IMG/VR virus record: IMGVR_UViG_3300032331_000879
Span: 1 to 27,709 of that record
DNA: 27,709 bases
Source: a virus
Strand: one strand, 5' to 3'
A program made the translations under genes and the position numbers. The notes under the pieces are model-generated. The model saw only the letters and a list, made by a program, of their open reading frames with translations. It did no database searches and was not told the origin of the DNA. Below, one piece after another: positions 1,122-15,547 of this stretch (the stretch's first letter is position 1; the number at the start of each line of letters is the position of its first letter).

Positions 1122-2039
1122 TTAATCTTCAGCCAACTTCTCAAAGTAACTCAAGTCTTCATCGTCATCAACAACTGAGTCTGCAACTGTAGTTTTCTTA
1201 GCAGGTGCTGGCGTAGGTTTTGCTGTTGAAGCAGTAACTGGCACATTAGGTTTAGTAGAGTAATAATTATCTCCAGCAGAACCATCTTCAAGCCCAAGCA
1301 CTTTGTTCAAACGTGCTTTCAATTCATCATAAGACTTAAAGTTTTTCTCACTCAAGAATTCAGACAAACTGTGTTCTTGTTTCCAAATACGCTCTAAGTC
1401 ATCTTCATCGCCAGACAAAGGTGCTGACGATTCAAACTCAGACTTATCATAGTTCTGATAACCTTCTACTTTACGAATCTTCAACTTGAAGTTCGCACCT
1501 TCCCAAAGGTCGAATGGGTTGACAGGAGTTTCATCTTCAAACTCAGGATTCATCAAGTCATTCAACTTGTCGAAAATCTTCTTACCGAATTTGAACAACT
1601 TAACTGTTCCGTCATTGTCAGGATTTGCAGGATCCTTGATAACGTAAATGTTTGCGATATACTGCAACTTACGCTTTTGCTTACGTGCAATATCTTTGTT
1701 AGCATCAGAACCAGAGTTCCAAAGGATGCTATTGTGTTCAGACACAGGGTCTTTCTTGTTGAGTGTAGTCAACGAATTTTCAATGTACCATCCACCAGGA
1801 CCTTGGAATGAATGATTGAAAACTTGAACCCAAGGCACATCTTCGCCTGCGGGTGAGGGAAGAAAACGAATCGTTGCGAATCCATTACCTGCTTTGTCTA
1901 CTGTGGGTTTCCAGAATCGGAGGTCTTCATAAGACTTCTTACCTTCTTCTTTATTTGTGAGTTTGGAAACTGCGTCTGTGAGTTTTTCCAAATCTTTGGT
2001 GCGTGACTTTTTCATGTCTGCAAATGATGTTGATGCCAT
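1122..2039 (-). CDS. 32: Single-stranded DNA-binding protein, T4 gp32 family, lacking the zinc ligands
   Basis: 305 aa against 301 in T4. The order matches gp32: basic N-terminal region (DMKKSRTKDLEKL), core OB-fold with VFNHSFQGPGGWYIE (about residues 74-87), IANIYVIKDPANP, KFGKKIFDKLNDLMNP and LWEGANFKLKIRKV, then a linker and an acidic C-terminus (DDDEDLSYFEKLAED) of the type that recruits replication partners. It coats ssDNA during replication, recombination and repair. The start is ATG 2039, preceded by AAGGA 6 nt upstream; the frame extends further upstream but without a better start. The T4 zinc site (one His, three Cys) is not conserved. The His in NHSF is present, but the region that holds the three Cys reads DPVSEHN, and the whole protein has no cysteine. 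It sits last in the 33-59-32 cluster, with its own promoter and a terminator. Confidence 0.95.
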   Translation of the reverse strand: MASTSFADMKKSRTKDLEKLTDAVSKLTNKEEGKKSYEDLRFWKPTVDKAGNGFATIRFLPSPAGEDVPWVQVFNHSFQGPGGWYIENSLTTLNKKDPVSEHNSILWNSGSDANKDIARKQKRKLQYIANIYVIKDPANPDNDGTVKLFKFGKKIFDKLNDLMNPEFEDETPVNPFDLWEGANFKLKIRKVEGYQNYDKSEFESSAPLSGDEDDLERIWKQEHSLSEFLSEKNFKSYDELKARLNKVLGLEDGSAGDNYYSTKPNVPVTASTAKPTPAPAKKTTVADSVVDDDEDLSYFEKLAED

Positions 2040-2058
2040 ATTAGTATTTCCTTGTATG

Positions 2059-2175
2059 TTAAGTATTAAATGTATGTTTTGCTTGTCCACTTTTATCATA
2101 ATCTACTATAGTATATAGTCTATCACAATTCTCTTTTTGTGTCAATAGACGGCAAACCTTCTTGGGTTTACTCAT
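2059..2175 (-). CDS. Small hypothetical protein between genes 59 and 32
   Basis: A 38-codon frame (MSKPKKVCRLLTQ... to HTFNT) starts 8 nt after the gene 59 stop and ends 19 nt before gene 32. It is basic at the N-terminus and has two Cys. No convincing Shine-Dalgarno sequence precedes it (GGCGTAGTGGCAGTA), and the sigma70-like promoter for gene 32 lies inside it. It may be a real mini-gene or just leader sequence. No family is recognised. Confidence 0.35.
   Translation of the reverse strand: MSKPKKVCRLLTQKENCDRLYTIVDYDKSGQAKHTFNT
2117..2145 (-). promoter_or_regulatory. Sigma70-type promoter for gene 32
   Basis: On the - strand TTGACA (2145-2140) is followed after 17 nt by TAGACT (2122-2117), and a second AT-rich TATACTATAG lies just downstream. 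The start of transcription would be about 70 nt upstream of the gene 32 ATG, leaving a leader that could carry gp32 autoregulation as in T4. That role is inference; the hexamers and spacing are seen. Confidence 0.6.
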
Positions 2176-2183
2176 TACTGCCA

Positions 2184-2780
2184 CTACGCCACTACTAACT
2201 CTCTGAGTGACTTTTTCATCCGTGCCGTATCGTAATTTAAAAAGGGCTGGTACTTTTTGCATAACTTGCTTACCTCTTTGTAGATTGGATCATGTATCAT
2301 TGTATCATACCTTTTGACAAATTGCAATAGTGAATTCAATATTGCTAAAGTCTCCAGACTGATTTCTTTTCTTAAATATTTCTTTATGATTGGTGGATGG
2401 TCTCCACCTTTCGCATTAAAAAATTCATTCAGTTCGGTTGCTGTCCAACCAGAGATAAAATCCATCTCATTTTTAAATACATACGTCAACGATTCTTGTC
2501 TGCGTTTCCATTCTTTGTAGCGTTCTTCACACTCTTCAGATAGAAGTTCGCCGACCCACATTTTGGTATCATGCATAAAGTTAGAAACTAAAAACTCTTC
2601 TAAGTAAGCATCTTTACGATTGCCAAGTTTAGCAAAAAAGATTTTGTCTTTACGTTTCAAAAAAGAATCGTATGTGACATTAACTTTCTTGTTATACTTG
2701 AACCAATCGTAACTGTCTAACGTAAAATGATTTTTAACTCCTAAGTAAACCTTGTATGCGTCTATAGCATCCATCTTCAT
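2184..2780 (-). CDS. 59: DNA helicase loader, T4 gp59 family
   Basis: 198 aa (T4 gp59 is 217). Features shared with gp59 include the N-terminal DAYKVYLGVKNHF...YDWFKYN block (T4: VYKLYLMIKQH...IKYN), KRKDKIFFAKL (T4: KRRDKYFFQKL), the mid-protein FISG/F-rich helices, SLETLAILNSLLQFV (T4: SFETFILLDSFLNII) and the C-terminal YQPFLNYDTARMKK (T4: YRKILNIDSQKAK). gp59 loads the replicative helicase onto gp32-coated forked DNA. The start ATG shares TAATG with the gene 33 stop, so translation is probably coupled. The neighbours gp33 and gp32 are the canonical T4 partners, which supports the call despite low identity. Confidence 0.88.
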   Translation of the reverse strand: MKMDAIDAYKVYLGVKNHFTLDSYDWFKYNKKVNVTYDSFLKRKDKIFFAKLGNRKDAYLEEFLVSNFMHDTKMWVGELLSEECEERYKEWKRRQESLTYVFKNEMDFISGWTATELNEFFNAKGGDHPPIIKKYLRKEISLETLAILNSLLQFVKRYDTMIHDPIYKEVSKLCKKYQPFLNYDTARMKKSLRELVVA

Positions 2781-3019
2781 TACTCATCCACCTCAATAGG
2801 CAATCTTGCTTTCGGTGCAATCATCTTTAACTTCATCGCTTCACCCTCAATAGCAGACTTCATGCGAGGCGTAATTAAAGATGCCGCAGTTTCAACTTCA
2901 ATATTTTTCTGAGTGCAGTATTCTAGAATAGCATCAATCATTGTGATAGGATGCTTATCCCGTTGTACTTGTTTAATCTCAGACTCAAATTCTTTTTGAG
3001 TTAAGATTTTAAGACTCAT
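2780..3019 (-). CDS. 33: Late-promoter transcription accessory protein, T4 gp33 family
   Basis: 79 aa from the ATG at 3019. The frame is open back to 3067 and two further upstream ATGs exist, but 3019 gives only an 11-nt overlap with the preceding small gene and fits the length of short cyanophage-type gp33 proteins. The sequence has an N-terminal KILTQKEFESEIK helix, a central MIDAILEYCTQKNIEVETAA block typical of this family, and a short basic end (APKARLPIEVDE). gp33 bridges sigma gp55-RNA polymerase to the sliding clamp and activates late transcription. The position directly before gene 59 matches T4. No strong ribosome site is visible, so translational coupling is likely. Confidence 0.8.
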   Translation of the reverse strand: MSLKILTQKEFESEIKQVQRDKHPITMIDAILEYCTQKNIEVETAASLITPRMKSAIEGEAMKLKMIAPKARLPIEVDE

Positions 3020-3200
3020 ATGATCGTACCGATGTGATTCTACCATTTCGGTAGTGCCCAAATTCATTTAGTTTGACAGCAGGTTTAGCAGAACGAAAGT
3101 TCGGATTAGAAACTTCTTTCTCTGTTGCATAGTAACTAGAGGGATATCCAGTTCTACGCTGATTTGTTTTCATTTCAATTTTAGTACGCATAATATTCAT
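3009..3200 (-). CDS. Small hypothetical protein upstream of gene 33
   Basis: 63 aa, ATG at 3200 preceded by AAGGACTTGAA, a good ribosome site. It is basic and polar, rich in Arg, Ser and Tyr (RRTGYPSSYYATEKE, FGHYRNGRITSVRSYES), with no Cys or hydrophobic segment, so probably a small soluble nucleic-acid- or protein-binding peptide. Its end overlaps the start of gene 33 by 11 nt. Family not recognised. Confidence 0.65.
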   Translation of the reverse strand: MNIMRTKIEMKTNQRRTGYPSSYYATEKEVSNPNFRSAKPAVKLNEFGHYRNGRITSVRSYES

Positions 3201-3781: not shown

Positions 3782-3810
3782 ATTATACTATCTTTTTCTG
3801 AAATAGTCAA
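3782..3810 (-). promoter_or_regulatory. Sigma70-type promoter for the SleB-type gene
   Basis: On the - strand TTGACT (3810-3805), a 17-nt spacer and a perfect TATAAT (3787-3782). It overlaps the last codons and stop of the GDPD-like gene and would give a leader of about 55 nt. It lets the hydrolase gene be transcribed apart from the glycan operon. Confidence 0.7.
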
Positions 3811-4243: not shown

Positions 4244-4553
4244 ATTTGTCACTCGGTATGCTAGGCCATCGAATCACTATCAATTCAACGTCAGTTAAAA
4301 ATTCTACAGCAGAAACTTCGTTCTTCTCATACGTCCACATATCACCTTCTTTGAGATGTTTACCTGACGCAATAAGTTCTCCTCGGACGATGTAATTCAG
4401 TTCTGTTGTAACCTTATGAAAGTGTGGGAATGTCTCCTCACCCTTTTTATGTTTATGATGCCCAATCTCAAAGAATGGATTCTTAAACAAAGATGGATTG
4501 AAGTCACCAACAAACCATCCTTTTACATATTCATTTATGTTCGATACATTCAT
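4224..4553 (-). CDS. Cupin-fold protein of the glycan operon
   Basis: 109 aa. Cupin motif 1 is represented by KKGEETFPHFHKVTTELNYIVRGEL (His pair plus Glu), and motif 2 by the weaker EGDMWTYEKNEVSAVEFL, where the usual second-motif His is missing. It could be a sugar epimerase/isomerase-type cupin or a binding protein. The start ATG overlaps the stop of the upstream nucleotidyltransferase-RpiB gene (ATGA), so it is translationally coupled to sugar-nucleotide enzymes. Confidence 0.75.
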   Translation of the reverse strand: MNVSNINEYVKGWFVGDFNPSLFKNPFFEIGHHKHKKGEETFPHFHKVTTELNYIVRGELIASGKHLKEGDMWTYEKNEVSAVEFLTDVELIVIRWPSIPSDKYEVDCT

Positions 4554-5704
4554 TCAAGTTCCTGAATTCGTAACTGGTGTCTACCACCATCGAATGTATG
4601 TTGAAATCCTAATCTAAGATACTCATGTAGATTTTCAGAATTTGCATTCATTGCAGGTATAGCAAAGAAGTTAGCACAGTTATGACGCATAGCCATTTCC
4701 ATTGCATTGTAATCATAGATTAGCGCAGAGCGAATGCCTTTGTATTTGTTAGCACACATGTTAACGCCTTGTCCTGTTCTACAGAAACTAAACGCATAGT
4801 CACAGTCGCCATCTTCAATACCTTTAACTGCTTGGCTGATAAAGTCTTTGTAATTACAGTCACGATTGACAACTGTACCATAGTCAATATACTTTTTACC
4901 AAGTCCTTTTAGTACAGACTTAAACAATTCTTTTGCTTCATATCCAGAATGGTCACAGCACAGCGCAAATGGTTTATCACCAAAACGTTTGACAACATTC
5001 TTTTTGTAGAAGTTAAACTCATCTGGCGTACCAAACACATGCATCTTATCTACTGGATGCGTAATGATTTTAAGCCCATCTTCAATCAACAGATTGTACA
5101 GAGGTGCAATATAGAATTCATTGTTTGTGCGAATGTCATCGGCAATCATTTTCTTTGCATACTTGCAGAAATCAGAACCACGTTTGAATCCATAGATGCC
5201 AACACACGCATCGGAACTAATTGCTTTCTTCTCAGCAGTTTCAGATACATAGTTATCATCGTCACACTTAGCATAACTGTAGTTTGCGCTATTTGATTTG
5301 AATGTCAATAAAACACCATCGGCTAAAAGACTACCAACAATCTTAGGATCAAACACTGGTCTAAACTCAATGTCTAATGTATGAATAACAAGCGGTGCAT
5401 CATTATCGATGTACTCAGATGCATACAAACAACTTTCAACTGAACCTCTAGTCAAGTGATCTAGCACAACAACTTTAATGTCATCACCAAACTTCATGCG
5501 TAGAATTTCATCCATTCTGAAATTGTATACGTGTTCGTCACGAATGATAAAAATCAAATTACAGTCTGTCGTATCTAAGCAGTCAAGTGAGATATCAATC
5601 AACTGTTTGTCTTTAATGTTAATTAATTGCTTGGGTACAGTAAAGCCTTCTTTCAAAAAGCGACTACCTAAACCTGCCATTGGTATCAATACGTTTGTCT
5701 TCAT
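4550..5704 (-). CDS. Fusion of a sugar-phosphate nucleotidyltransferase and an RpiB-like isomerase
   Basis: 384 aa with two domains. Residues about 1-240 are a GT-A type nucleotidyltransferase: LIPMAGLGSRF (P-loop-like GxGxRF), VPKQLINI (the usual PK motif), VIHTLDIEF in the metal-binding region, and GTPDEF near the domain end. Residues about 245-384 are RpiB/LacA-like: ALCCDHSGYEAKE (Asp-His), FSFCRTGQGVNMCANK (Cys308 at the place of the RpiB catalytic Cys), GIRSALIYD, HNCANFFAIPA (His341), and FDGGRH near the end. So both halves keep their key residues. The predicted reactions are aldose-ketose isomerisation of a sugar phosphate and NTP-dependent activation of a sugar phosphate. It is coupled by ATGA to the PfkB-like kinase gene before it. 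The exact sugar is unknown. Confidence 0.88.
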   Translation of the reverse strand: MKTNVLIPMAGLGSRFLKEGFTVPKQLINIKDKQLIDISLDCLDTTDCNLIFIIRDEHVYNFRMDEILRMKFGDDIKVVVLDHLTRGSVESCLYASEYIDNDAPLVIHTLDIEFRPVFDPKIVGSLLADGVLLTFKSNSANYSYAKCDDDNYVSETAEKKAISSDACVGIYGFKRGSDFCKYAKKMIADDIRTNNEFYIAPLYNLLIEDGLKIITHPVDKMHVFGTPDEFNFYKKNVVKRFGDKPFALCCDHSGYEAKELFKSVLKGLGKKYIDYGTVVNRDCNYKDFISQAVKGIEDGDCDYAFSFCRTGQGVNMCANKYKGIRSALIYDYNAMEMAMRHNCANFFAIPAMNANSENLHEYLRLGFQHTFDGGRHQLRIQELE

Positions 5705-6354
5705 ACTTTACTTTTCAAATGATGTGTAGTTAGATTGTGCGAAAGAACCATACATTCGTGATCTAATCTTGTATTTAATTTTCCGTACATAAAGCAAGCG
5801 GCATAATAATCGCCTGCACCTAATACGTTCGCACCTTTTATATATTTGTCATCGGATAGAGTAAAGGTATCGCCTTTGCTGTTATAACTTTTCATTGGAG
5901 AATGCGTAACAACAACTCCAGTAAATTCTTCAACATCTCTTAACAAATGCATGTCTTCTTCAGAGACAAAAATGTAATCTAGATACTTATATGCTTCTTT
6001 GTCGATTTCTCTTCCAGAACAAATATCACCAAATACCAAACCAGAAATGTTCTTTAAGAAACTCATATCGGTAATGTAGTTAACATATGCAACATGACTG
6101 ATTAGTGCTGGTTCTGTTTTAACGTCAACTGTAATCGAATTTAAATTAGATTCGCTAGTGCGTTGACTGTTCTCTTTATCTATTGTGATTGTAGAGGTTC
6201 CAATATTAGTTGGACAGACATATACGCTTAACGTTGAGTCTATGTTTTTCAAAGCACGCCACACGTTTACCACACCACCAATTTCGTTTACCGTTTTAGT
6301 ATTGTCTTTTATCGTATCAAATACTAAGTGTCCATACAATGCTATATCATACAT
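5701..6354 (-). CDS. PfkB-family carbohydrate kinase, short form
   Basis: 217 aa from ATG 6354 (TGATG overlap with the KdsC-like gene; AAGGA lies within the end of that gene). The PfkB pattern is present: IALYGHLVFDTI, EIGGVVNVWRAL (substrate-binding GG), IFVSEEDMHLL (an N/S-x-x-E motif region), VVTHSPMKSYN, and the signature GANVLGAGDYYAACFMYG with the catalytic Asp in GAGD. The protein is about 80-100 residues shorter than usual kinases, so the lid or middle strands are reduced. In the operon it follows a phosphatase and precedes the isomerase-nucleotidyltransferase, which fits phosphorylation of a sugar phosphate before activation. Confidence 0.8.
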   Translation of the reverse strand: MYDIALYGHLVFDTIKDNTKTVNEIGGVVNVWRALKNIDSTLSVYVCPTNIGTSTITIDKENSQRTSESNLNSITVDVKTEPALISHVAYVNYITDMSFLKNISGLVFGDICSGREIDKEAYKYLDYIFVSEEDMHLLRDVEEFTGVVVTHSPMKSYNSKGDTFTLSDDKYIKGANVLGAGDYYAACFMYGKLNTRLDHECMVLSHNLTTHHLKSKV

Positions 6355-6890
6355 CAAAATTTTTCCTTTTCATCTAACGTATATACGTCATCTAAGTGTT
6401 CATCAAAATAATAATTAGGAAGCAATTCTCTTGATTGCAGTTCTTCAAATAGAGCCATAACGACATTCTCGCCAGCACGTTGTGTTAACACCGAACAAAC
6501 GTTTATCATTTCAACTGTTGCATCGCTAGGACAAAATGCATGACCAACGGCGCTTGCAATTCGCACATCAAAGATATCATCACCAACATAAACAACTTCG
6601 TCAGGAATTACACTAAAGTCGCTACATATTTCATCTAAGAAATCTACTTTGTCTGTGTGTGTACCATTGCTTCTGTTTAGATAGAATGGTAAGTTTCGAT
6701 TGTTTGCAATGTTTGCGTTAAAGCCATCACCAGAAAGAAAAGCAACTTCGATGCCTAACGCACGAAATCGCTTGATTGCAGTCCAGTCTTTATCGCAAAA
6801 TGTTTTAAGTCTAACGGTGCCTTCTTTGTCATAGTATTTTCTACCATCTGTCATCACACCATCAATGTCAAGAAGAATAAGTTTAATCAT
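6354..6890 (-). CDS. KdsC-like HAD phosphatase
   Basis: 178 aa, the usual length for KdsC. The HAD motifs are LILLDIDGVMTDGR (motif I with both Asp), AFLSGDG (motif II), TDKVDFLDEI (Lys region) and EVVYVGDDIFDVRIASAVG (motif III). GVMTDG and GDDIFD are hallmarks of the KdsC/YrbI C0 subfamily, which removes phosphate from Kdo-8-phosphate or related sugar acids. The start is ATG 6890, 1 nt after the WavE-like stop, so that the protein begins directly with the HAD strand. The operon has no KdsA or KdsB, so a Kdo substrate is not implied. It may be the phosphatase of a heptose-like pathway. Confidence 0.9.
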   Translation of the reverse strand: MIKLILLDIDGVMTDGRKYYDKEGTVRLKTFCDKDWTAIKRFRALGIEVAFLSGDGFNANIANNRNLPFYLNRSNGTHTDKVDFLDEICSDFSVIPDEVVYVGDDIFDVRIASAVGHAFCPSDATVEMINVCSVLTQRAGENVVMALFEELQSRELLPNYYFDEHLDDVYTLDEKEKF

Positions 6891-6891
6891 T

Positions 6892-7611
6892 TCAATTTGC
6901 CCAATACTCAGTATATGCTGTACCAACATGATAGTGATATTCGTCTAATCCGTGCTTAGGCCATGACATGCTTACTCTAGGAAAAGGAACAAAAACTCTA
7001 TCTCTAATTTTATAATCTTTTTCAAGTGCTTCATGTCTTCTTTCGCCACGATCAACTAAAAACGTGAGTGGATCATTTATATGTTCCCATATCGATGGAT
7101 CAAATCTCGCATAGTAATACTGACCAATGTAAGTTTCTGCTCTTGTGTTATATGTATAATTCTGATTTGAGCCTCTTTCGATATCAAACGGAATATCGAA
7201 CACATTCACCACATCTTCTGTTCTGCCCCAAAATACATGATCTCTTGGATGATATGGAAACGCTTTGTACATTCCCATAACAAATACCTTACCATCTTCT
7301 CGCTTATCGTTCTTCCAATACTCGTACATCAACGGCATGTCTCTAATGAGTTGGTCTGTTCTCATCTTAATGCAATACTTACTTTGCACTAATGACAGTC
7401 CGTTCTTTGATGTATTGATTTGAAGATTACGATTGCCTAATCCTCTAGGTGAAATTAATTCGTTGAAGATAACATTTACGTCATCTGGTATGTGCGAGTT
7501 TTCGTATGTAGAAAGTATAATGTTTTCTACGAATGGAAGTTTTCTATATTCTTCAATGAGTGTTTTGGTGAACGGAGTACATTCACCTTGCAATACAATG
7601 TCAAGTTTCAT
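6892..7611 (-). CDS. WavE-like LPS synthesis protein / glycosyltransferase
   Basis: 239 aa from ATG 7611, which begins MKLDIVLQGE, the usual first strand of the family. Upstream in-frame ATGs at 7626 and 7671 would overlap the preceding gene further and lack ribosome sites. Features: IDIV/LQGE start, FVENIILSTYENS, NLQINTSKNGL, YCIKMRTDQLIRDM (the Arg-Thr-Asp motif acting like DxD in this GT-A group), and DHVFWGRTEDVVNVFDIPFD. WavE is required for core LPS synthesis in Vibrio. The activity here is presumably transfer of a sugar to a glycan. Confidence 0.8.
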   Translation of the reverse strand: MKLDIVLQGECTPFTKTLIEEYRKLPFVENIILSTYENSHIPDDVNVIFNELISPRGLGNRNLQINTSKNGLSLVQSKYCIKMRTDQLIRDMPLMYEYWKNDKREDGKVFVMGMYKAFPYHPRDHVFWGRTEDVVNVFDIPFDIERGSNQNYTYNTRAETYIGQYYYARFDPSIWEHINDPLTFLVDRGERRHEALEKDYKIRDRVFVPFPRVSMSWPKHGLDEYHYHVGTAYTEYWAN

Positions 7612-8530
7612 CCACGATTCGTTCATAGAATGACAATACAGTTTCTGCGTTCCACTTGTCGTAGAATTCATTTAGTGGTTCAGCGCCAGCGGCAATGATA
7701 TCTTTGATTGACGTTTTGGTCAAGTCGTTGAAATCTCTACGCATGTGCTTTAGAAAACTAGAATCATTCACACCAAATGGTTTGCGTGATGCTAATGCTC
7801 TGTCGAGTGAACTACTCACACCATAAACGCTTGATGTTGAATACCAATAGAGATTGATATCATTACCATTCAACCAACGAATCAAATCTTCTTTATCTAA
7901 GAATTCTTGATTGACATTGATTTGTACATTTGGATTTGCAAGACTACGACATTCTTCAATTAATTTTGAAGAGAGTTTGCCTGTAGGGTCTACGAATGCA
8001 CCATTAGATACGTGCAGATTTAAAATAACGTCTTCAGTAAATTGCTCATTGATTAGTTTAATAATCGCAGACAAATTCTTTGTGATGTTACCAATTCCAC
8101 TAGTGCCAATTTTGATTGTGCCACTTGGCTTGCTATATTGAATGTCATCGTAGTACATGACTGGAGGCAATCCAGCATACTCATGTTCTTCAACTTTCAT
8201 AGTTGGATCAGTATACACATATGAATCAACATTGGTAAACTTGTCTACGTGTTCGTGCCCAAACAAAACAACTTGTCTAATGTTTCTCATATTTTTAATT
8301 GGTCGAGTGATACCATTGTTCAACCAACGTAGCGTTACTGGATGATGATTGTATATGATTGTGCATGGATCATTTTCATGTACCCAAGTACTAAACTCAT
8401 GTTCATCATTAGTGGGTAGAAATTCGAATTGATATTTCTTAGATGTTTTCAGAATGTCATACAATGATTCTGCATATTGATAGATGCCACATTCTTTTGT
8501 TGCACCTGTAACTAGAAGTACTTTTTTCAT
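7601..8530 (-). CDS. GT-B glycosyltransferase-like protein
   Basis: 309 aa. The N-terminus MKKVLLVTGATKECGIYQYAESL is the typical first strand and Gly-rich loop of group 1 glycosyltransferases. The C-terminal half contains IKIGTSGIGNITKNLSAIIKL, INVNQEFLDKEDLIRWL and YWYSTSSVYGVSSSLDRALASRKPFGVND, which matches the donor-binding helix (S-S-S-x-D-x-A-L-A). The usual E-x7-E motif is weak. The start overlaps the stop of the next upstream gene (ATGA). A sugar transfer role is inferred from fold and operon; donor and acceptor are unknown. Confidence 0.75.
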   Translation of the reverse strand: MKKVLLVTGATKECGIYQYAESLYDILKTSKKYQFEFLPTNDEHEFSTWVHENDPCTIIYNHHPVTLRWLNNGITRPIKNMRNIRQVVLFGHEHVDKFTNVDSYVYTDPTMKVEEHEYAGLPPVMYYDDIQYSKPSGTIKIGTSGIGNITKNLSAIIKLINEQFTEDVILNLHVSNGAFVDPTGKLSSKLIEECRSLANPNVQINVNQEFLDKEDLIRWLNGNDINLYWYSTSSVYGVSSSLDRALASRKPFGVNDSSFLKHMRRDFNDLTKTSIKDIIAAGAEPLNEFYDKWNAETVLSFYERIVDET

Positions 8531-9483
8531 GTCAATTGTCTTGTTGGGTTTTTACTGTTTGATGCCAGTTCATTATTAATCAATTCATTCACAATACGAA
8601 TTGCAACATCATTATCTAGTGTATCACTAAAATATGAATCAGCAAAGTATTCGCCTTCACCCATCAAACAATCTTTTAGTTTATGGCTGAAACACATGAA
8701 TGTTTTATTTGGATCGTTCATATTAGACTTGATGTGTGCATACGTGAATGGACCACTATTCTTACCGACAATCAATTCTGCATGTTGACTGATATATGAA
8801 ATCTTGTTTAGACTACCAACAATCATAGGACCAAAGATAACATTACTTGCGTTCATGTCTCTAGTCTTTGTGCCGCAGTATGTCACGTTAGGCAAATCAA
8901 AATCTAATTCATCAGTAACTAAGAATTCACAATCGTTATGCTCTGTTGCAAGTCGATAGATGATATCTCGCATGTCACCCATGCTACTTTGTTCGCTTTG
9001 TTGTTGACTATTGCAGAACAAGAATAGACGTTTGTTATCTACACGCTTCAAGTATTCATCACACTCAGATAAGTCATAGTGTTCCCACTTAACTTGAGGT
9101 AAGTAATCCTCGAACGATGGATTGATATCAACGTTCAATGCTTTGTAAATTTCACGCCAAAGATTGTGCAACAACTTAAAGTTTGCATGATCCTTGTCGC
9201 CCATGTATTTTGGAATTAAGCAACCAGCCCACGTATTCACATAGACTGTTCTGCCACCATCAACTTCTGGTACTGAATTGACTAGATTAAACATTCCCAT
9301 TTTAGGAATCTCATCTAACTTCAAATGTTTGATGCCCAAGTCACCAACGATATCAGGATAGTTATTGTGTGCATAAGCAAATTCAATGTCAGGAAACATA
9401 CTAATGATTTCTCTGACATATTCTTTGCCTATGAAGCAATCACCATTTCTCCATTGATTGAAGAAAATTACTTTAGTTTTCAT
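8527..9483 (-). CDS. Putative glycosyltransferase-like protein (heptosyltransferase-type fold)
   Basis: 318 aa, no transmembrane segment. The N-terminus KVIFFNQWRNGDCFIGKEYVREI resembles the first strand and loop of GT9-type enzymes. Near residue 235-260 the segment YISQHAELIVGKNSGPFTYAHI resembles the donor-site GxxSGP/T loop of heptosyltransferases. RLFLFCNSQQQSEQSS starts the second Rossmann-like domain. It is coupled by ATGA to the methyltransferase gene upstream. The assignment rests on fold-like motifs and context rather than a clear family match. Confidence 0.65.
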   Translation of the reverse strand: MKTKVIFFNQWRNGDCFIGKEYVREIISMFPDIEFAYAHNNYPDIVGDLGIKHLKLDEIPKMGMFNLVNSVPEVDGGRTVYVNTWAGCLIPKYMGDKDHANFKLLHNLWREIYKALNVDINPSFEDYLPQVKWEHYDLSECDEYLKRVDNKRLFLFCNSQQQSEQSSMGDMRDIIYRLATEHNDCEFLVTDELDFDLPNVTYCGTKTRDMNASNVIFGPMIVGSLNKISYISQHAELIVGKNSGPFTYAHIKSNMNDPNKTFMCFSHKLKDCLMGEGEYFADSYFSDTLDNDVAIRIVNELINNELASNSKNPTRQLT

Positions 9484-10697
9484 TTAGAGATGATCTTAAA
9501 TTCTGGACAAGGAACGATGAATGCACCACCATTATTCAAAAAGTCTTGCTCACGCTTTTCGAATTCATCAATGAAGTGCCAAGGAAGAACCAAAAGATAA
9601 TCTGGCTTTGCTTTACGCATTTCGTCTTCGCTGATAATTGGAATATTTGTACCAATAGTCTTCAAGCCAAACTTGTATGGGCTACGTTCTGCAATCGCAG
9701 TAATGTCTTTGCTATCTAATCCAAAGAATTGCAATAGCGTATTACCTTTAGTGCTTGCACCATAACCATAAACTGTCTTGCCTTTTGCAACTGCATCTCT
9801 AACAAAAGAAACAACTTTAACTTTTAGCGCATGTAGTTCTGCACCAAATTCTGCCCATGTTGCTGGATCAGAAATATCATTCTCTACTTTCTCATAGTAC
9901 AAAATGCTATTGATTCTGAAGTCGCACACATCACGCAAAGGTGCTGTAGCAAAACTAGAAACTTCTGCAATGTCTTTCTGCAAATAGATTCTGAAACTTC
10001 CACCATTCGTATCATTCAAACTGCAATCAACAATTCTAAAACCATGTTGTGAGAACAAAGTCTGAATGCTATTTAAGTCGTAGTAGTAAACGTGTTCGTG
10101 GCAAATGTTATCAAACGCCATCTGTTTAATCATCAACGGAGTGTAACTCATCTGCAATACGAGAGTGCCGTTGTCATGCAATACGTTATATAAGTCTTTG
10201 ACAAATGGATGTGGATCATCTAAGTCATAGAACATCGCAATGCAACTAATTACTTTTGCTTTCTTGTCGCCGTATCCAGTTTTCTTCCAAGCATCATAAC
10301 TGAAATAGTCTTGAACAACTTTTGTCGCAACTTTGGAACTTTCTGCAAGATATGTATCGTCCGCTGGATCAATACCAATCTTAATTAGATTGTCCGGAAC
10401 GTTACGCAATAGAGTTCCATCATTACATGCAATGTCAAGCCAAATGTCATCGTCTTTCAATTTAACTCTTGAAGTCACTTCAGCAACAATACCTTGCAAC
10501 TCTTTAGTCATACTTGCGTTGATGCCACTACGATACCAATACTGTCCCCACATTGTATCTGCTGGCGCTAGTCCATGAAGTCTAACTGCACCAAGTTTAT
10601 TGTCTAAGTGTAAGTCTAAACTATATTTCTTTCGGGCTTCGCTTTCATCTTTAATGAAGTCGCTTACGTAGTGGTCACCAATTTCAAGTACTCTCAT
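9480..10697 (-). CDS. SAM-dependent sugar C-methyltransferase (TylC3/NovU-like)
   Basis: 405 aa. The central SAM-binding domain has DDIWLDIACNDGTLLRNVP (motif I) and VISCIAMFYDLDDPHPFV. The NDP-sugar C-methyltransferase layout is clear: GQYWYRSGINASM before the SAM domain, NICHEHVYYYDLNSIQTLF, DTNGGSFRIYL, and the C-terminal Rossmann-like part with GKTVYGYGASTKGNTLLQFFG and KFGLKTIGTNIPI. The N-terminal zinc-binding domain of the family is nearly absent: the protein starts VLEIGDHYVSDF, where longer relatives first have a Cys-rich segment. Some family members act on dTDP-keto-sugars; here the product of Gmd (GDP-4-keto-6-deoxymannose) is a plausible substrate. Confidence 0.88.
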   Translation of the reverse strand: MRVLEIGDHYVSDFIKDESEARKKYSLDLHLDNKLGAVRLHGLAPADTMWGQYWYRSGINASMTKELQGIVAEVTSRVKLKDDDIWLDIACNDGTLLRNVPDNLIKIGIDPADDTYLAESSKVATKVVQDYFSYDAWKKTGYGDKKAKVISCIAMFYDLDDPHPFVKDLYNVLHDNGTLVLQMSYTPLMIKQMAFDNICHEHVYYYDLNSIQTLFSQHGFRIVDCSLNDTNGGSFRIYLQKDIAEVSSFATAPLRDVCDFRINSILYYEKVENDISDPATWAEFGAELHALKVKVVSFVRDAVAKGKTVYGYGASTKGNTLLQFFGLDSKDITAIAERSPYKFGLKTIGTNIPIISEDEMRKAKPDYLLVLPWHFIDEFEKREQDFLNNGGAFIVPCPEFKIISK

Positions 10698-10699
10698 AT

Positions 10700-11077
10700 T
10701 TAATCCTCATGTGATTTTTCTTCAACTAGTGCAGAATTGCAAAGAATGTTTATTTCTTTTTTGATTCTGCTTCTTTCATCATTCGTTTTATATATCTTTC
10801 TTGCAACATCAATAAATGCTGATTCAAAAAAGTTAGTCTTTTCGTAATGTCTAATGTCTTCCTCAAGAAACCACAAACGCAAATTGACTTCCATCAATTG
10901 CTGTTGTTGTTCTAGTACATCTTTTTGTATTCTAACATATTCTATCAAAGAAGTCAACGCATCATGTTCTTTTTGAACATTAACTAGTTTTTCTTTGTCT
11001 TTAATCTGAGTGAGTTTGATTTTGAGAATGGTAATCTTATCTACAAGTTCACCGACACTAACTGGTATATTAATCAT
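10700..11077 (-). CDS. DUF6165-like protein of polysaccharide clusters
   Basis: 125 aa from ATG 11077, whose ATGA overlaps the upstream stop. The N-terminus INIPVSVGELVDKITILKIKL is the family signature. The rest is a long, charged, predicted helical/coiled-coil region (KDKEKLVNVQKEHDALTSLIEY, VLEQQQQLMEVNLRLWFLEEDIRHYE). No catalytic motif is known to me. Homologs sit beside glycosyltransferases and sugar-nucleotide genes, as here, so a structural or assembly role in glycan synthesis is likely. Confidence 0.75.
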   Translation of the reverse strand: MINIPVSVGELVDKITILKIKLTQIKDKEKLVNVQKEHDALTSLIEYVRIQKDVLEQQQQLMEVNLRLWFLEEDIRHYEKTNFFESAFIDVARKIYKTNDERSRIKKEINILCNSALVEEKSHED

Positions 11078-11841
11078 CGTCTTAGTATGTCCATCTCTGA
11101 ACATTCCTCTCCATATTGAAGTTCAATCAATTTCAGCATCTCATTCGTATTGTTAGAGAGTCTGTGCCATTTCTCTTTTGGAATCCAAATGTCTTCGTGT
11201 TCACCAAAGACACCAACGAGTTTTTCAATTCCATCGTTAGAAGTATGTAGTGTCGCATAACCTTCAGCAACAAACCAAAACTCAGAACGTTTCTCATGCT
11301 TTTGCATACTCAACGATTTGCCAGGTTCAACGTTTAACTCTTTTACTTTTAGAGTCTTACCTGTCTCATGTAGCACACGATAGTTGCCCCATTGTCTGTC
11401 TGTCTTTGGTGCTTTCCATTCTTCAAGAATCCATCGGCTACTGTTTTGCTTATCTTGTCCACCAACACCAAATACAAACTTCACTCTCGAATCGTTTGCA
11501 TATGCATCTTGTTCAGGTACATTCGTGTGATCTCTATCTCCACCATTCGCAAAAATGATTTCTGCATCAGGATATTTTTCTAATAGAATGCGAATGCAAT
11601 CGATGCTGTTATTCGTGTCATCGTTGAATGCCATGACCTCATCGACCATAGATAGATTACCGATGATTGCAAGTCGTTCGTGAATAGGCATGAATGCTCG
11701 ACCTTTTTTTCTAGTCAGCCAATCATCACTATTCAATCCGATTACTAACATGTCGCCTAGGGTTGCGGAATGTTTGAAGTAAGATATGTGACCAGAATGT
11801 AGTGGATCAAAACCACCTGTCGCTAAAACAATTTTTGTCAT
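11074..11841 (-). CDS. Cytidylyltransferase-cupin fusion
   Basis: 255 aa. Residues 1-140 are a cytidylyltransferase/RfaE C-terminal type domain: LATGGFDPLHSGHISYF with the HSGH nucleotide motif at 15-18, LVIGLNSDDWLTRKKGR, FMPIHERLAII, IIFANGGDRD. Residues about 149-255 are a ManC C-terminal type cupin: RQWGNYRVLHETGKTLKVKEL, LSMQKHEKRSEFWFVAEG (metal-binding His/Glu), EDIWIPKEKWHRLSN. In mannose metabolism such cupins are type II phosphomannose isomerases, but there they are fused to a GT-A guanylyltransferase, not to an HxGH domain. The gene is 2 nt downstream of gmd. It could supply an NDP-sugar or activate a heptose-like sugar. Confidence 0.87.
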   Translation of the reverse strand: MTKIVLATGGFDPLHSGHISYFKHSATLGDMLVIGLNSDDWLTRKKGRAFMPIHERLAIIGNLSMVDEVMAFNDDTNNSIDCIRILLEKYPDAEIIFANGGDRDHTNVPEQDAYANDSRVKFVFGVGGQDKQNSSRWILEEWKAPKTDRQWGNYRVLHETGKTLKVKELNVEPGKSLSMQKHEKRSEFWFVAEGYATLHTSNDGIEKLVGVFGEHEDIWIPKEKWHRLSNNTNEMLKLIELQYGEECSEMDILRR

Positions 11842-11843
11842 AA

Positions 11844-12860
11844 TTAATAATAATTTTTGTTGAATTCATCACTACACATTTCGTGTACTAAGTCTTTGAA
11901 AGAATATTTAGGCACCCAATTTAATGTCTGTTTCGCTTTTGTGCAATCGCCTAGTAATGTGTTCACTTCAGCGGGACGATAGAATTCTTCAGATACCTCA
12001 ATAAGTGTTTCACCAGTCTTCATATTGATGCCAACTTCATCCAAGCCTTCGCCTAGCCATTCGATTTGAACACCAAGATAATCTGCAACCATATCGCAGA
12101 AGTCTCTGACTGAATGTTGTTCACCGCTAGAGATAACATAATCATCTGATACATCTTTTTGCACTAGAAGATACATTGCTTCTACGTAATCTTTAGCATG
12201 ACCCCAATCTCTGAGTGCTTCTAAGTTACCCAAACGTAATGGCTTTTTATCTCCCATCCATGCGTTCATAAGTCCTTGCACAATTTTGCGTGTAACAAAT
12301 TCAGGACCTCTACGTGGACTTTCGTGATTGAATAGAATACCATTAGATGCGTGAATGCCATAACTCTCACGATAGTTAACAGTAATCCAATATGCATATA
12401 ATTTTGCGACTGCATATGGGCTACGTGGATAGAAAGGAGTTTTTTCTGTTTGTGGTACTTGCTGAACCATGCCATACAATTCACTTGTTGATGCTTGATA
12501 AAATTTACATCTCTTATCTAAACCTCGAATTGTTTCTAACATAGTGAGTACGCTGATGCCATTTACTTGTCCAGTAAATTCGGGCATCTGAAAACTTACG
12601 CCAACGTGTGACTGTGCGGCTAAGTTATATACTTCGTCTGGTTGTGTTTTTACGATGATGTTTCGAACATTTGCAGTATCAGTCAAATCGCTGACATGTA
12701 GTTGAATATCATTTTTGATGTGTTCAATGTTTGTGGTATTGAAACCTGTGCTGAGTCTACGTGCAAGTCCATGCACTTCGTAGCCTTTACTTAATAGAAG
12801 TTCTGCTAAGTAACTTCCATCCTGTCCTGTGATTCCTGTAATCAATGCAACTTTGCTCAT
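11844..12860 (-). CDS. gmd: GDP-mannose 4,6-dehydratase
   Basis: 338 aa, a full-length short-chain dehydratase. It has the NAD(P) loop ITGITGQDGSYLAELLLSKG, HVSDLTD, YNLAAQSHVGVSF, the Ser/Thr triad region YQASTSELYG, the catalytic YAVAK (with RSPYA), FNHESPRRG, and the C-terminal EEFYRPAEVNTLLGD typical of Gmd. It converts GDP-D-mannose to GDP-4-keto-6-deoxy-D-mannose, the branch point for GDP-fucose, rhamnose, perosamine and others. No fucose synthase, reductase or aminotransferase is seen here, but the C-methyltransferase two genes on could act on the keto-sugar. The start is ATG 12860 with GGAGATTAC before it. It is the first gene of the glycan operon, 19 nt downstream of the tmRNA 3' hairpin. 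Confidence 0.95.
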   Translation of the reverse strand: MSKVALITGITGQDGSYLAELLLSKGYEVHGLARRLSTGFNTTNIEHIKNDIQLHVSDLTDTANVRNIIVKTQPDEVYNLAAQSHVGVSFQMPEFTGQVNGISVLTMLETIRGLDKRCKFYQASTSELYGMVQQVPQTEKTPFYPRSPYAVAKLYAYWITVNYRESYGIHASNGILFNHESPRRGPEFVTRKIVQGLMNAWMGDKKPLRLGNLEALRDWGHAKDYVEAMYLLVQKDVSDDYVISSGEQHSVRDFCDMVADYLGVQIEWLGEGLDEVGINMKTGETLIEVSEEFYRPAEVNTLLGDCTKAKQTLNWVPKYSFKDLVHEMCSDEFNKNYY

Positions 12861-12879: not shown

Positions 12880-12910
12880 GACAGGTTATTCTGTTACGAG
12901 GAAACCTGTC
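12880..12910 (-). other. Hairpin at the 3' side of the tmRNA coding piece
   Basis: GACAGGTT (12910-12903) pairs with AACCTGTC (12887-12880) around a 15-nt loop, followed by ACTATTTTA. It may be the terminal stem of the coding piece (in place of a pseudoknot), a weak terminator or a processing signal before gmd. Confidence 0.55.
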
Positions 12911-12927
12911 GAAACCCTAGTCAGCGT

Positions 12928-12960
12928 TTAGGCTGCCAATGCGAAACGTGAGTCGTTTGC
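12928..12960 (-). other. tmRNA proteolysis-tag reading frame (ANDSRFALAA)
   Basis: Following AATAAAGTAAAC, the frame GCA AAC GAC TCA CGT TTC GCA TTG GCA GCC TAA encodes ANDSRFALAA. With the Ala from the charged tmRNA the tag would be AANDSRFALAA. The ANDxxxALAA frame matches E. coli (ANDENYALAA). I recall ANDERFALAA as the common betaproteobacterial tag, one residue different. The ALAA end is the ClpXP degradation signal. Confidence 0.9.
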
Positions 12961-13045
12961 GTTTACTTTATTTTCTTCTTTTTACATCGTTGCTGATGTG
13001 CTGTCCACTCTGTTACTCTTTGCCCTGTCGAAACTATGCACCCCC

Positions 13046-13103
13046 ATCAAAAACACACTTCATGGATGAACCCACTTGTCACCTTGCGGTTAGAGTGTGC
13101 TTT
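13046..13103 (-). other. Intervening segment of the permuted tmRNA precursor
   Basis: 58 nt lie between the encoded CCA and the mature 5' end of the coding piece. Its two ends are complementary: AAAGCACACT (13103-13094) pairs with AGTGTGTTTT (13059-13050) with one G-U, so the acceptor helix is extended by about 10 bp before a loop. This is what a pre-tRNA-like processing intermediate of a permuted tmRNA requires. It would be removed by host nucleases (RNase P at the 5' side). Confidence 0.85.
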
Positions 13104-13168
13104 TGGTGGAGGTGGGGGGATTCGCACCCCCGTCCAGAACCTGTTTCTCTTTGCTTCATACAGCAATA

Positions 13169-13306
13169 TCAATCGTAAGATGGCCAACCATTGTCCGCCT
13201 TACTATCTTCTTCAAAATTATTCCAATCGTAAGTTGCAAGTTTGTAAATCCAAAATACATGTAGTCCTACAATCAGAAGAAATAATATTGTATCACTATT
13301 TATCAT
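13169..13306 (-). CDS. 45-aa membrane protein upstream of tmRNA
   Basis: The frame begins ATG 13306, 1 nt after the nuclease stop (TAGCATG), and ends TGA 13169. The sequence starts MINSDTILFLLIVGLHVFWI: one transmembrane helix at about residues 6-21, then a short acidic and aromatic tail (YDWNNFEEDSK...GWPSYD). No ribosome site is obvious, so coupling to the upstream gene is likely. The stop falls directly before the tmRNA acceptor piece, which supports both boundaries. Function unknown. Confidence 0.65.
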   Translation of the reverse strand: MINSDTILFLLIVGLHVFWIYKLATYDWNNFEEDSKADNGWPSYD

Positions 13307-13315
13307 GCTAGTCAA
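13287..13315 (-). promoter_or_regulatory. Sigma70-type promoter for tmRNA
   Basis: On the - strand TTGACT (13315-13310), a 17-nt spacer and TACAAT (13292-13287). Transcription would begin near 13280, inside the 45-aa frame and about 110 nt before the tmRNA acceptor piece. A T4-late-like GATAAATA (13304-13297) lies in the spacer. The tmRNA can thus be made independently of the genes upstream, and gmd may be read from the same transcript. Confidence 0.6.
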
Positions 13316-13976
13316 TCAATACAGCATCATATGCTTCACGGTAAGATATAAAATCTTTGATGTAGTCGTTGCGTTTCTTAATGAACACTTGTGGATGTTC
13401 AGAGTCAACGGCAATCATAATTACAATTTGTGATACTGGTATGCCAGTTCGTTCTTCATACATGACTGCATACGCAGAGCATTGCATAAAGTATCCTTTA
13501 ATCCAACTCTCTTCTTTTAACTTGCTTGAAGTTTTAAAATCAATGATAGATAATTTGCCATCATACTCTGCAATACAGTCAACTCTACCTGCAACTTTTA
13601 AATGGTGTGAATACAAAGGAATCTCTAGTGCATGAATGTTGTTTACATGTTCATCCAATAGAGGTTGTAAAGACTTAAACATAGCAACAGAATCTGGCAT
13701 CGTCTTACGTGCAAAGTCTTCTTCGTTGTTCAAGTAGTTTTCGCAAATCTTGTGTACTCTAGTGCCACGGCTAGATGCTTTAGTTGAAATACGATTGGCT
13801 TCTTCTTCGCCTACACGCTTTCGCCACTCTATGATTTTATCTTTACCATGTTGTGATGTGATAGTAGTCACAGAAGGATATAGATCGCCTTCAGGCGTCT
13901 TATAAAAACGCTTGCCGTTTATTGTTTCGGTTTCTAGGTCATAATCAATATCACAACCAACATGTTTAAAGTTCAT
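13308..13976 (-). CDS. RecB/Cas4-type PD-(D/E)XK exonuclease
   Basis: 222 aa. The nuclease motifs are in order: SRGTRVHKICENYL (motif with the N-terminal catalytic His), VAGRVDCIAEYDGKLSIIDFKTSSK (GRVD Asp, then IIDFKT with Asp and Lys), and GYFMQCSAYAVMYEER (the Q-x-x-x-Y motif of RecB-like nucleases). The N-terminal part RFYKTPEGDLYPSVTTI is typical of phage members. It probably trims or degrades DNA ends in phage recombination or host DNA breakdown. No iron-sulfur Cys cluster is seen, unlike Cas4. It precedes the tmRNA locus and follows an unknown gene by 2 nt. Confidence 0.88.
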   Translation of the reverse strand: MNFKHVGCDIDYDLETETINGKRFYKTPEGDLYPSVTTITSQHGKDKIIEWRKRVGEEEANRISTKASSRGTRVHKICENYLNNEEDFARKTMPDSVAMFKSLQPLLDEHVNNIHALEIPLYSHHLKVAGRVDCIAEYDGKLSIIDFKTSSKLKEESWIKGYFMQCSAYAVMYEERTGIPVSQIVIMIAVDSEHPQVFIKKRNDYIKDFISYREAYDAVLID

Positions 13977-13978
13977 TT

Positions 13979-14755
13979 TTATCGTACCACAAAATATAGA
14001 TTAAAGTATTTATCTCCGTTACTTTCGAGACCTCCACTAAAGTGGATTATAGGAAGATTGGCTAAGTCTTTTAGTTTATCATAAATGTTAACAAATGTCA
14101 AGTTCGACACATCTCTTGATATGTCTTTCAAGTACAGAGAGTTAAACTCAAGTTCAAATCCACGTTTACTGGTGTTCTCATCTTTTACTGATGCCGCTCT
14201 AGTAATTTTAGTCTTCTCTAAAAATTGTGGATATAAATTAAAACCACTTGCATCAATCAATGCTTTGTATTCACTTGCAGGTTTCAAATCATATCTAGTC
14301 ACTACAGAGTTAGACTTAACCCATTTGAATCCAAATCCAAAATTCTGTAGAGGAATTTCACAATAAACTTTATACTTCGCTACATCACCATCTGCTTCAA
14401 TAGCAAACATGATACAACTACAGTTCTTATATTCCGCCATTAATCTAAGAACATATTTTTCTGGAAAATTATATTTGCGAACAAGTTTAAGAACATCATT
14501 GATAGATGTAAAATTTTGTTTTTTATAGATGAAAACAATAACACGATCACGTACAAGACGTTCTTTGGTAACTTTAACAGAATGATGAATTTTGATTTTA
14601 TGCGCCTGCCAAAATTCACTCTGAAACTGATTCACAAACTCTTTAACGTGTGCGTTATCAGTCCTAACAGAGTCTATTGCTAGGTATTTTGGATTCAATG
14701 TGCTTAAGTCTATGTCGCCCAAGCCAGAATTAGTTATTAGAGGTTCCGTCTTCAT
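13979..14755 (-). CDS. Hypothetical protein between PhoH and the RecB-like nuclease
   Basis: 258 aa, overlapping the end of the phoH-like gene by 26 nt. There is no clear ribosome site before ATG 14755, so the exact start is uncertain. The sequence is soluble and mixed alpha/beta: a basic region near residues 50-80 (KIKIHHSVKVTKERLVRDRVIVFIYKK in the sequence), then CSCIMFAIEADGDVAKYKVY, and a C-terminal strand-rich part (IIHFSGGLESNGDKYFNLYFVVR). I recognise no family. Its position between two DNA/RNA metabolism genes suggests a nucleic-acid role, but this is only context. Confidence 0.75.
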   Translation of the reverse strand: MKTEPLITNSGLGDIDLSTLNPKYLAIDSVRTDNAHVKEFVNQFQSEFWQAHKIKIHHSVKVTKERLVRDRVIVFIYKKQNFTSINDVLKLVRKYNFPEKYVLRLMAEYKNCSCIMFAIEADGDVAKYKVYCEIPLQNFGFGFKWVKSNSVVTRYDLKPASEYKALIDASGFNLYPQFLEKTKITRAASVKDENTSKRGFELEFNSLYLKDISRDVSNLTFVNIYDKLKDLANLPIIHFSGGLESNGDKYFNLYFVVR

Positions 14756-15503
14756 GTTGTAGTTTCGCTAAAATATAATCTTTTACCAATGAAGAGCGAA
14801 CGATATCATCTACAGTAAATTCAATCTTTGTAAATGCTTTCATGTGATATGCAATATCAAAGAATTTGAGAATACCTGATACGTCATTCTTCTTCTTATT
14901 CAAGTCAGTTTGGCGATAGTCACCGCACCAAATAATCTTAGAGCGATAACCAACCCTTGTCATAACTGTATCTATCTCTTCGAATGTCATGTTTTGCATT
15001 TCATCTACAATGATGATAGCGTCATCAAATGACATACCACGAATGAATGATGTTGAAATGAATTCAATATGACCTTGTTCTTCTAATCTATCCCATGCAT
15101 CTTTGCGACCGAAAAGAGTGTCGCAGATTTGACGATATGGTTGTTGATAGATTTCCATCTTCTCATTCACATCACCAGGCAAATGTCCAATCTCTCTTGA
15201 TTGAACAGCAGAGCGTACTACAATAATTTTATCAAATGGATTTGATTTGTCCATCACTTCTTCGATTGCTTTGTATAGCGCACAAAATGTTTTACCTGTA
15301 CCTGCTACACCATGAAGTGCCACAAAATAGTCTCCACGTTTGTATGCATCGAAAAAGAGTTTTTGATTTTCTGTTAGAGGGTCAAATGTTTTTAAATCAT
15401 CTAGTCTGAGTCTGAGTGTGTTATTTACTGTTTTTGTTCTAGGGGTTTGTTGAAGTTCTGGTTCGGTGTTTGCCGCTTTAGATACAGCAGGTTTTCTTGC
15501 CAT
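14730..15503 (-). CDS. phoH: PhoH-family ATPase
   Basis: 257 aa from ATG 15503, preceded by AGAGGGCACC. An in-frame ATG at 15545 would add 14 low-complexity residues and has no ribosome site. The N-terminus is a disordered Pro/Thr/Lys region. The ATPase domain has Walker A VALHGVAGTGKTFCALYKAI, PFDKIIVVRSAVQSREIGHLPGD, Walker B DDAIIIVDEMQNMTFEEI and IIWCGDYRQTDL, the full PhoH layout. PhoH-like genes are common in aquatic T4-like phages. The function is still debated (RNA helicase/RNase partner), and regulation by phosphate starvation is not shown by sequence here. Confidence 0.93.
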   Translation of the reverse strand: MARKPAVSKAANTEPELQQTPRTKTVNNTLRLRLDDLKTFDPLTENQKLFFDAYKRGDYFVALHGVAGTGKTFCALYKAIEEVMDKSNPFDKIIVVRSAVQSREIGHLPGDVNEKMEIYQQPYRQICDTLFGRKDAWDRLEEQGHIEFISTSFIRGMSFDDAIIIVDEMQNMTFEEIDTVMTRVGYRSKIIWCGDYRQTDLNKKKNDVSGILKFFDIAYHMKAFTKIEFTVDDIVRSSLVKDYILAKLQHEDGTSNN

Positions 15504-15547
15504 GGGTGCCCTCTTTGTGGTTGTAGTATTTTTATGTGTACCCATTA

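Follow-up and report, generated by a model that had tools for sequence, protein, structure and literature searches.

The DNA analyzed here, referred to as the window, is a viral contig of 27,709 bases (IMG/VR record IMGVR_UViG_3300032331_000879, positions 1 to 27,709) that represents an incomplete genome. Predicted homologues of gp32, gp59 and gp33, together with PhoH, a PDDEXK exonuclease and a cell-wall hydrolase/endolysin, place it among the T4-like phages, as an earlier note made from the bare sequence had proposed. The closest relatives of its gp32 and PhoH are cyanophage proteins (about 48-56% identity), and none of the cultured phages is close. A circularly permuted tmRNA gene of the beta type (13167-12880, - strand) lies where the earlier note had put it, with a nuclease gene on one side and a nucleotide-sugar gene on the other. 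The features of the locus, all on the - strand and in descending order, are as follows.

14730..15545, - strand: PhoH-like ATPase gene, a conserved member of the ssrA locus
13308..13976, - strand: PDDEXK-type exonuclease gene (phrog_298), syntenic upstream neighbor of the tmRNA
13287..13315, - strand: candidate sigma-70-like promoter upstream of the tmRNA, TTGACT-17-TACAAT, with TG ahead of the second hexamer
13169..13306, - strand: membrane-protein-like ORF of 45 aa, MINSDTILFLLIVGLHVFWIYKLATYDWNNFEEDSKADNGWPSYD, ending 1 nt ahead of the conserved tmRNA leader
13104..13167, - strand: 3' (acceptor) piece and conserved leader strand, ATTGCTGTATGAAGC..., ending in an encoded CCA (ARAGORN, RF04321/RF01850)
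13115..13131, - strand: T-arm, stem GGGGG/CCCCC, loop UGCGAAU (U54 G55 ... A58) (sequence)
13108..13114, - strand: 3' strand of the acceptor stem, CACCTCC, U70 pairing with G3 (sequence)
13107 and 13106-13104, - strand: discriminator A and encoded CCA (sequence)
13046..13103, - strand: intervening segment (IVS) of 58 nt, predicted to be excised, with a 10-bp closing helix AAAGCACACT / AGTGTGTTTT and then TGAT stacking on CCA (fold, covariation)
12880..13045, - strand: 5' (coding) piece with acceptor strand, D-loop, tag ORF and 3' hairpin (RF04321, RF01850)
13045-13039, - strand: 5' strand of the acceptor stem, GGGGGTG (sequence)
13035 and 13034, - strand: A18 and G19 of the D-loop, CATAG then TTTCGAC (sequence)
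12999..13004, - strand: ACAGCA, pairing with TGCTGT at 13165-13160 (helix in the RF01850 alignment and complementarity)
12928..12960, - strand: tag frame GCA AAC GAC TCA CGT TTC GCA TTG GCA GCC TAA, ANDSRFALAA* (ARAGORN)
12880..12910, - strand: hairpin GACAGGTT...AACCTGTC, 3' end of the coding piece and part of the PK2 region (sequence; stem kept despite base changes in the alignment)
11844..12860, - strand: nucleotide-sugar epimerase/GDP-mannose dehydratase-like gene, first of a glycan cassette
1122..3067, - strand: gp32, gp59 and gp33 homologues, T4-like core genes

Two Rfam models scored above threshold on the - strand, and the earlier note thus passes the refuting test it had named, that of no permuted-tmRNA model doing so. 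The permuted-tmRNA model RF04321 gave 119.1 bits (cut-off 47; E 5e-23), with its full length of 1-213 aligned to 13165-12928, and the beta_tmRNA model RF01850 gave 98.8 bits (cut-off 84; E 3.7e-29) over 13229-12862 and topped its clan, the remaining members of which scored lower. ARAGORN likewise called a permuted tmRNA, with the tag ANDSRFALAA (coding part 237-269). The elements follow each other as leader, T-arm, CACCTCC with A and CCA, 58-nt segment, GGGGGTG, D-loop and TTTCGAC, tag frame and 3' hairpin. The reading of the earlier note, in which the CCA-bearing 3' piece comes first, therefore holds, as do its encoded CCA, its TTTCGAC element and its 10-codon tag with an ALAA end. The piece ends that it gave, 13104 and 13045, are exact and leave 13103-13046 as the IVS. 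Its pairing of GGGGGTG with CACCTCC was seen in all seven pairs of the acceptor stem, including G3.U70, which is the alanyl identity pair. Its intact T-arm needs refinement: stem and loop are present at 13131-13115, but the loop carries G55 instead of U. The TGCTGT/ACAGCA helix and the acceptor stem would together join both mature pieces.

The refined T-loop concerns the elbow of the molecule. In the window, G55 (13125) faces A18 (13035), and the D-loop reads AG where beta-type tmRNAs have GG, a paired change that is common among phage tmRNAs; the U55 and G18 found in the RF01850 consensus and in the cellular beta-type locus L385 are thus absent, and we accordingly classed the window gene as a beta-type phage tmRNA and not as a cellular beta tmRNA. 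Positions 18 and 55 covary across phage and cellular tmRNAs as either U55/G18 or G55/A18, a covariation that is real and for which we claim no newness, as G for U at T-loop position 55 was already noted in Caulobacter (PMC1168896). Among representatives of viral clusters, U54 G55 A58 occurred with a D-loop AG in 86 and with GG or GA in 11, while U55 occurred with GG in 43, with GA in 10 and with others in 3, the GA cases and exceptions coming mostly from loops with one base more or less, whose register is ambiguous; a further 10 carried G54 G55 G58 with AG. Cellular alphaproteobacteria showed G54 G55 G58 with AG (51 among those parsed), and cellular beta and gamma types showed U55 with GG. A scan of ~85,000 species genomes for U54-G55-A58 returned 99 stretches, mainly from Elusimicrobia, Uhrbacteria and other Patescibacteria, Fermentithermobacillaceae and Acidobacteria; a few came from alphaproteobacteria. 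We had considered the G55/A18 elbow as a phage-specific trait; this was ruled out, since it also occurs in cellular alphaproteobacteria and in the one-piece tmRNAs of several bacterial phyla. The window thus combines a beta-type body with an elbow absent from L385, the sole permuted cellular beta-type tmRNA parsed and hence a poor sample of that group; a search of 249 Pseudomonadota with RF01850 gave none above the cut-off, probably because just 6 candidates per genome are scored in searches of large sets.

The IVS and the acceptor stem form a precursor hairpin whose pairing is maintained in related viruses. The acceptor strands and excised loop of the window folded at -33.3 kcal/mol, compared with -19.4 +/- 3.1 in shuffled sequences (z -4.4), and 0 of 200 shuffles were as stable. 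In 122 viral representatives, for which dereplication relied on IVS 8-mers only, bases 1-10 of the IVS pair in a constant register with those that precede the terminal TGAT. All ten pairs of this closing helix covaried above every one of 500 shuffles, with changes on both sides, and double changes at acceptor pairs 5 and 6 also each exceeded all 500, in a control that preserved column make-up and not relatedness. The acceptor stem was paired in 122 of 122 representatives, its pairs 1-4 being fixed by the search patterns and therefore uninformative; in some of the loci the patterns fixed the GAT end as well. Within one IVS the two ends paired over 8.7 bp on average, compared with 5.0 when ends were swapped. 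Beyond the helix, A73 pairs with T at -1 and C75/A76 with G/T, around a constant C74.A mismatch.

Near relatives, taken as loci with a nuclease 87-99.6% identical to that of the window, differ mainly in the IVS. Among them the 3' piece and leader are 91-100% identical (identical in L514, about 93% in others), and the 5' piece is 92-99% identical in 11 of 12, the exception being L524 at 69%. Their IVSs, by comparison, show 29-55% identity to that of the window, which measures 58 nt; those of L002, L039, L048 and L062 have 88 nt, and those of L514, L526, L058 and others 175 nt. L043 shows the reverse pattern, with an IVS 90% identical to that of the window and a 5' piece only 75% identical, so segments of the tmRNA recombine. 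What the comparison newly shows is an IVS that is swapped between relatives while the mature pieces and the covarying 10-bp closing helix stay.

The gene also occupies a conserved place in T4-like genomes. From PhoH through the nuclease and ssrA to gp33, gp59 and gp32, the window has the order of Methylophilales phage Melnitz EXVC044M (Kyanoviridae, MZ577097) on one strand, with a glycan/nucleotide-sugar cassette (about 3788-12860) between the tmRNA and gp33-gp59-gp32 and a cell-wall hydrolase gene also intervening before gp33. Two apparent fusions lie in the cassette, one of a nucleotidyltransferase-like N-terminal part with an RpiB domain (4550-5704) and one of a cytidylyltransferase with a mannose-6-phosphate isomerase cupin (11074-11841). 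A permuted tmRNA was parsed in 295 viral loci, 64 of which had enough flanking sequence for synteny testing. As T-arm and acceptor patterns served to select the loci, the counts describe that sample only: a same-strand nuclease gene lay no more than 3 kb upstream in 43/64, gp59 or gp32 within 6 kb downstream in 46/64, either marker in 49/64 and both in 40/64. The nucleases of the synteny loci range from 33 to 99.6% identity to that of the window, and retention of the locus over this range marks the tmRNA gene as an old resident of it.

An implication of novelty in the earlier note was too strong, as permuted tmRNAs of T4-like aquatic phages were reported in 2022, when a two-piece tmRNA was described in the OM43 phage Melnitz, 53 of the unique phage tmRNA structures were called two-piece by ARAGORN, 50 of them from marine or aquatic phages, and phage ssrA was located upstream of the late transcription coactivator (PMC9004378). 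The window gene is one more case of this published class. It and the Melnitz gene are both permuted two-piece tmRNAs of T4-like phages and share their locus; the Melnitz record reads PhoH, PDDEXK nuclease, two small genes, ssrA, gp33, gp59, thyX and gp32. However, the Melnitz tmRNA (locus L731, 5985-6437) is of the alpha type (alpha_tmRNA 106.7 bits, tag ANDNYVPVDYALAA), gp33 follows ssrA directly, a glutamine riboswitch lies after ssrA whereas the window gave no riboswitch hit, and the IVS is 142 nt long with a 54-codon ORF starting inside it, whereas that of the window is ORF-free. This ORF is unannotated; it starts in the IVS behind GGAG (MFKWLSKTRLVV...; MFKWLSKTRLVVITRDYFRERNRKADAKIPKYLSG...) and ends inside the 5' piece.

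With permuted tmRNAs of betaproteobacteria (RF01850) the window gene shares body, leader, tag type and 3' hairpin, but these have the G18/U55 elbow and a shorter closing helix, the cellular example L385 has ACCC in place of the encoded CCA, and DNA similarity to the sampled relatives of beta-type hosts is weak. With those of alphaproteobacteria (RF01849) it shares A18 with G55, but the cellular alpha T-loops examined read GGCGGTA (G54, G58), whereas the window has U54/A58 and is of the beta type elsewhere. ARAGORN also calls permuted tmRNAs in Xanthomonas phage Rb1 and Stenotrophomonas phage DLP6, which differ from the window in their G18/U55 elbow and belong to different phage groups or loci; both genes (Rb1, 2474-2902 of L322; DLP6, 1463-1806 of L323) are missing from the record annotation. 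Caulobacter phage CcrRogue (L324, around 1500) has a further unannotated candidate, in which T-arm and acceptor strands were recognized by eye only and ARAGORN made no call. The alphaproteobacterial genome G005 has two permuted-tmRNA matches 6.4 kb apart on one contig (L287 and L291; 145.9 and 83.7 bits), the weaker of which may be a remnant or a phage copy. A DNA search with the window tmRNA matched one isolate phage, Rb1, over 70 nt only. Naming a host by tmRNA similarity failed, the best match among 300 genomes from the order of a beta-type host being 83% over 46 nt, and we claim no host.

IVS length had a median of 61.5 and a maximum of 229 nt in viruses (n=140, T-arm-selected sample) and a median of 30 and a maximum of 58 nt in cellular genomes (n=56, nearly all alphaproteobacteria). 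When 240 alphaproteobacteria were searched by pattern, four IVSs of 90-120 nt came to light, one with a 25-codon ORF and the others with none of note. Targeted scans gave 82 viral clusters with an IVS of at least 100 nt, and 35 of them contain an ORF of 25 codons or more that takes up 60% or more of the IVS (mean in shuffles 10.4, maximum 19); a Shine-Dalgarno-like sequence precedes the nested ORF in 20 clusters (mean in shuffles 1.5, maximum 6). Part of the 35 is expected to be due to chance, chiefly those that have no ribosome-binding site. The strongest nested ORFs fill 87-97% of the IVS, have AAGGA within its first seven bases, which belong to the closing helix, and take their stop TGA from the terminal TGAT. 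In homologous pairs 63 of 139 changed codons were synonymous, compared with about 20% expected for random changes (binomial P 2e-11 over eight hand-picked contrasts, a value that assumes independent changes, which they are not entirely), and one family has five near-identical members that differ only at third positions. Together with Melnitz, the carriers (L058, L081, L090, L238, L266, L443, L494, L508, L541, L545 and L553) represent about a dozen unrelated families, one of which, YxxWSIxADixxxxGIxYLxFF, is common to tmRNAs with different acceptor stems. A recognizable tag was kept in 33 of the 35 nested-ORF loci. Family searches returned no convincing match for the small ORFs, and tblastn against a phage collection left two of them without a match.

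Coding signatures of this kind are the ground on which we infer that nested ORFs may be translated, and their predicted products appear to include membrane proteins, basic CxxC-containing proteins and others. With its ribosome-binding site paired in a predicted helix, expression of a nested ORF may, speculatively, be low or dependent on processing. In L094, L029, L028, L234, L236 and L249 a single reading frame stays open across the entire IVS and extends into both tmRNA pieces, possibly as a protein gene overlapping the tmRNA; the through-frame peptide of L029 and L028 is YYTENEWSRLGxxGPLPPERNKQLL, and their DNA differs mainly at third positions. The frames of L094, L029, L028, L234 and L236 look coding in the IVS and were omitted from the nested-ORF counts.

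The 58-nt IVS of the window contains no ORF, whereas in the near relatives L514, L526 and L058 an ORF fills most of the IVS. The nuclease of L514 is 99.6% identical to that of the window and the counterpart of the upstream ORF 84% identical, and L514 has an extra 50-aa ORF within its IVS; nearly the same phage thus occurs in one form that has a protein gene in the IVS slot and in one that has none. Moreover, the ORF directly upstream of the window tmRNA (13306-13169) is homologous to the ORF nested in the IVS of L081, L443, L448, L458 and L460 (50-55% identity, 38-40 aa). We therefore consider it likely that phage permuted tmRNAs are composite genes in which the IVS serves as an exchangeable slot for unrelated small protein genes, often with the ribosome-binding site in a strand of the closing helix and the stop abutting the 5' piece, and that this slot is empty or differently filled in the strain group of the window. 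A tRNA gene and a repeat have been reported in such excised segments (PMC11915505). Our literature search found no report of ORFs in the IVS of permuted tmRNAs; it left most subscription journals outside its reach, and novelty is hence unproven.

On the basis of known tmRNA biology, the gene would act as follows. The transcript would carry the 3' piece, the IVS and the 5' piece in that order, the acceptor strands would pair, and the IVS would form a hairpin atop the acceptor stem. Host tRNA-processing enzymes would then free the IVS, with RNase P acting at G1 (13045) and 3' trimming or cutting after CCA (13104), and the two pieces would remain joined by the acceptor stem and the inter-piece helix. 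Host AlaRS would charge the molecule, in which G3.U70 is present, and host SmpB and EF-Tu would deliver it to stalled ribosomes, where ANDSRFALAA would be appended and the truncated protein sent to host proteases. The two-piece tmRNA of Caulobacter works in trans-translation, according to work cited in PMC3985003. For the phage, in line with the plausible role that the earlier note had put forward, ribosomes would stay usable while mRNA is cut and degraded in infection, and the most likely benefit would be the freeing of ribosomes stalled on cut messages during takeover.

We put the probability at roughly 80% that the phage gene is functional and encodes a two-piece tmRNA that rescues stalled ribosomes via host factors. 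Counted against this reading are the G55/A18 elbow, unlike that of cellular beta-type tmRNAs, and the promoter at 13287..13315, a weak candidate with 10 of 12 matches, given that the 1.3 kb scanned would contain 3.9 such sites by chance.

It is unlikely that the RNA mainly competes for or titrates host SmpB and tmRNA and so alters host protein quality control without serving rescue. A search for SmpB genes came up empty in 18 large viral contigs of relatives, which may be incomplete, while it recovered the gene in 10 of 14 control bacteria; host SmpB must then be shared, and the altered elbow could shift affinity for it. A tag-less tmRNA of mycobacteriophage DS6A does inhibit E. coli tmRNA (PMC11915505), but the tag frame of the window, unlike DS6A, is intact with its ALAA end, nearly all relatives with a long IVS and nested ORF have kept theirs too, and a pure titrator would not need one. 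We give very little credence to the small protein cargo being the main selected product and the tmRNA its scaffold: nested ORFs with Shine-Dalgarno sites do occur in many relatives, but the window and many others keep both tmRNA pieces with no ORF in the IVS. Decay of a host fragment gained by recombination is still less probable and largely refuted by the covariation, the conserved synteny and the purifying conservation of both pieces beside a freely changing IVS, even though T4-like phages acquire host genes and the mature pieces are mosaic between phages. That bacterial DNA or a prophage attachment site was misfiled as viral can be dismissed almost entirely, for although tmRNA genes are common integration targets, the window holds gp32, gp59, gp33 and PhoH in the gene order of the isolate Melnitz, its tmRNA sits within a phage operon, and the 300 sampled genomes gave no better match than the short one above.

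The window gene adds a beta-type case to the widespread but little studied ribosome-rescue RNAs of phages, and shows that these occupy a conserved T4-like locus and are not sporadic captures. What may surprise specialists is the cargo-slot pattern seen in its relatives. Annotation pipelines overlook such nested proteins; in the Melnitz record, for instance, the tmRNA encloses no annotated feature. Should the nested ORFs be translated, a single transcript would give rise to both a rescue RNA and a small phage protein, the latter from a part that is normally discarded, an arrangement absent from the tmRNA literature that we found.
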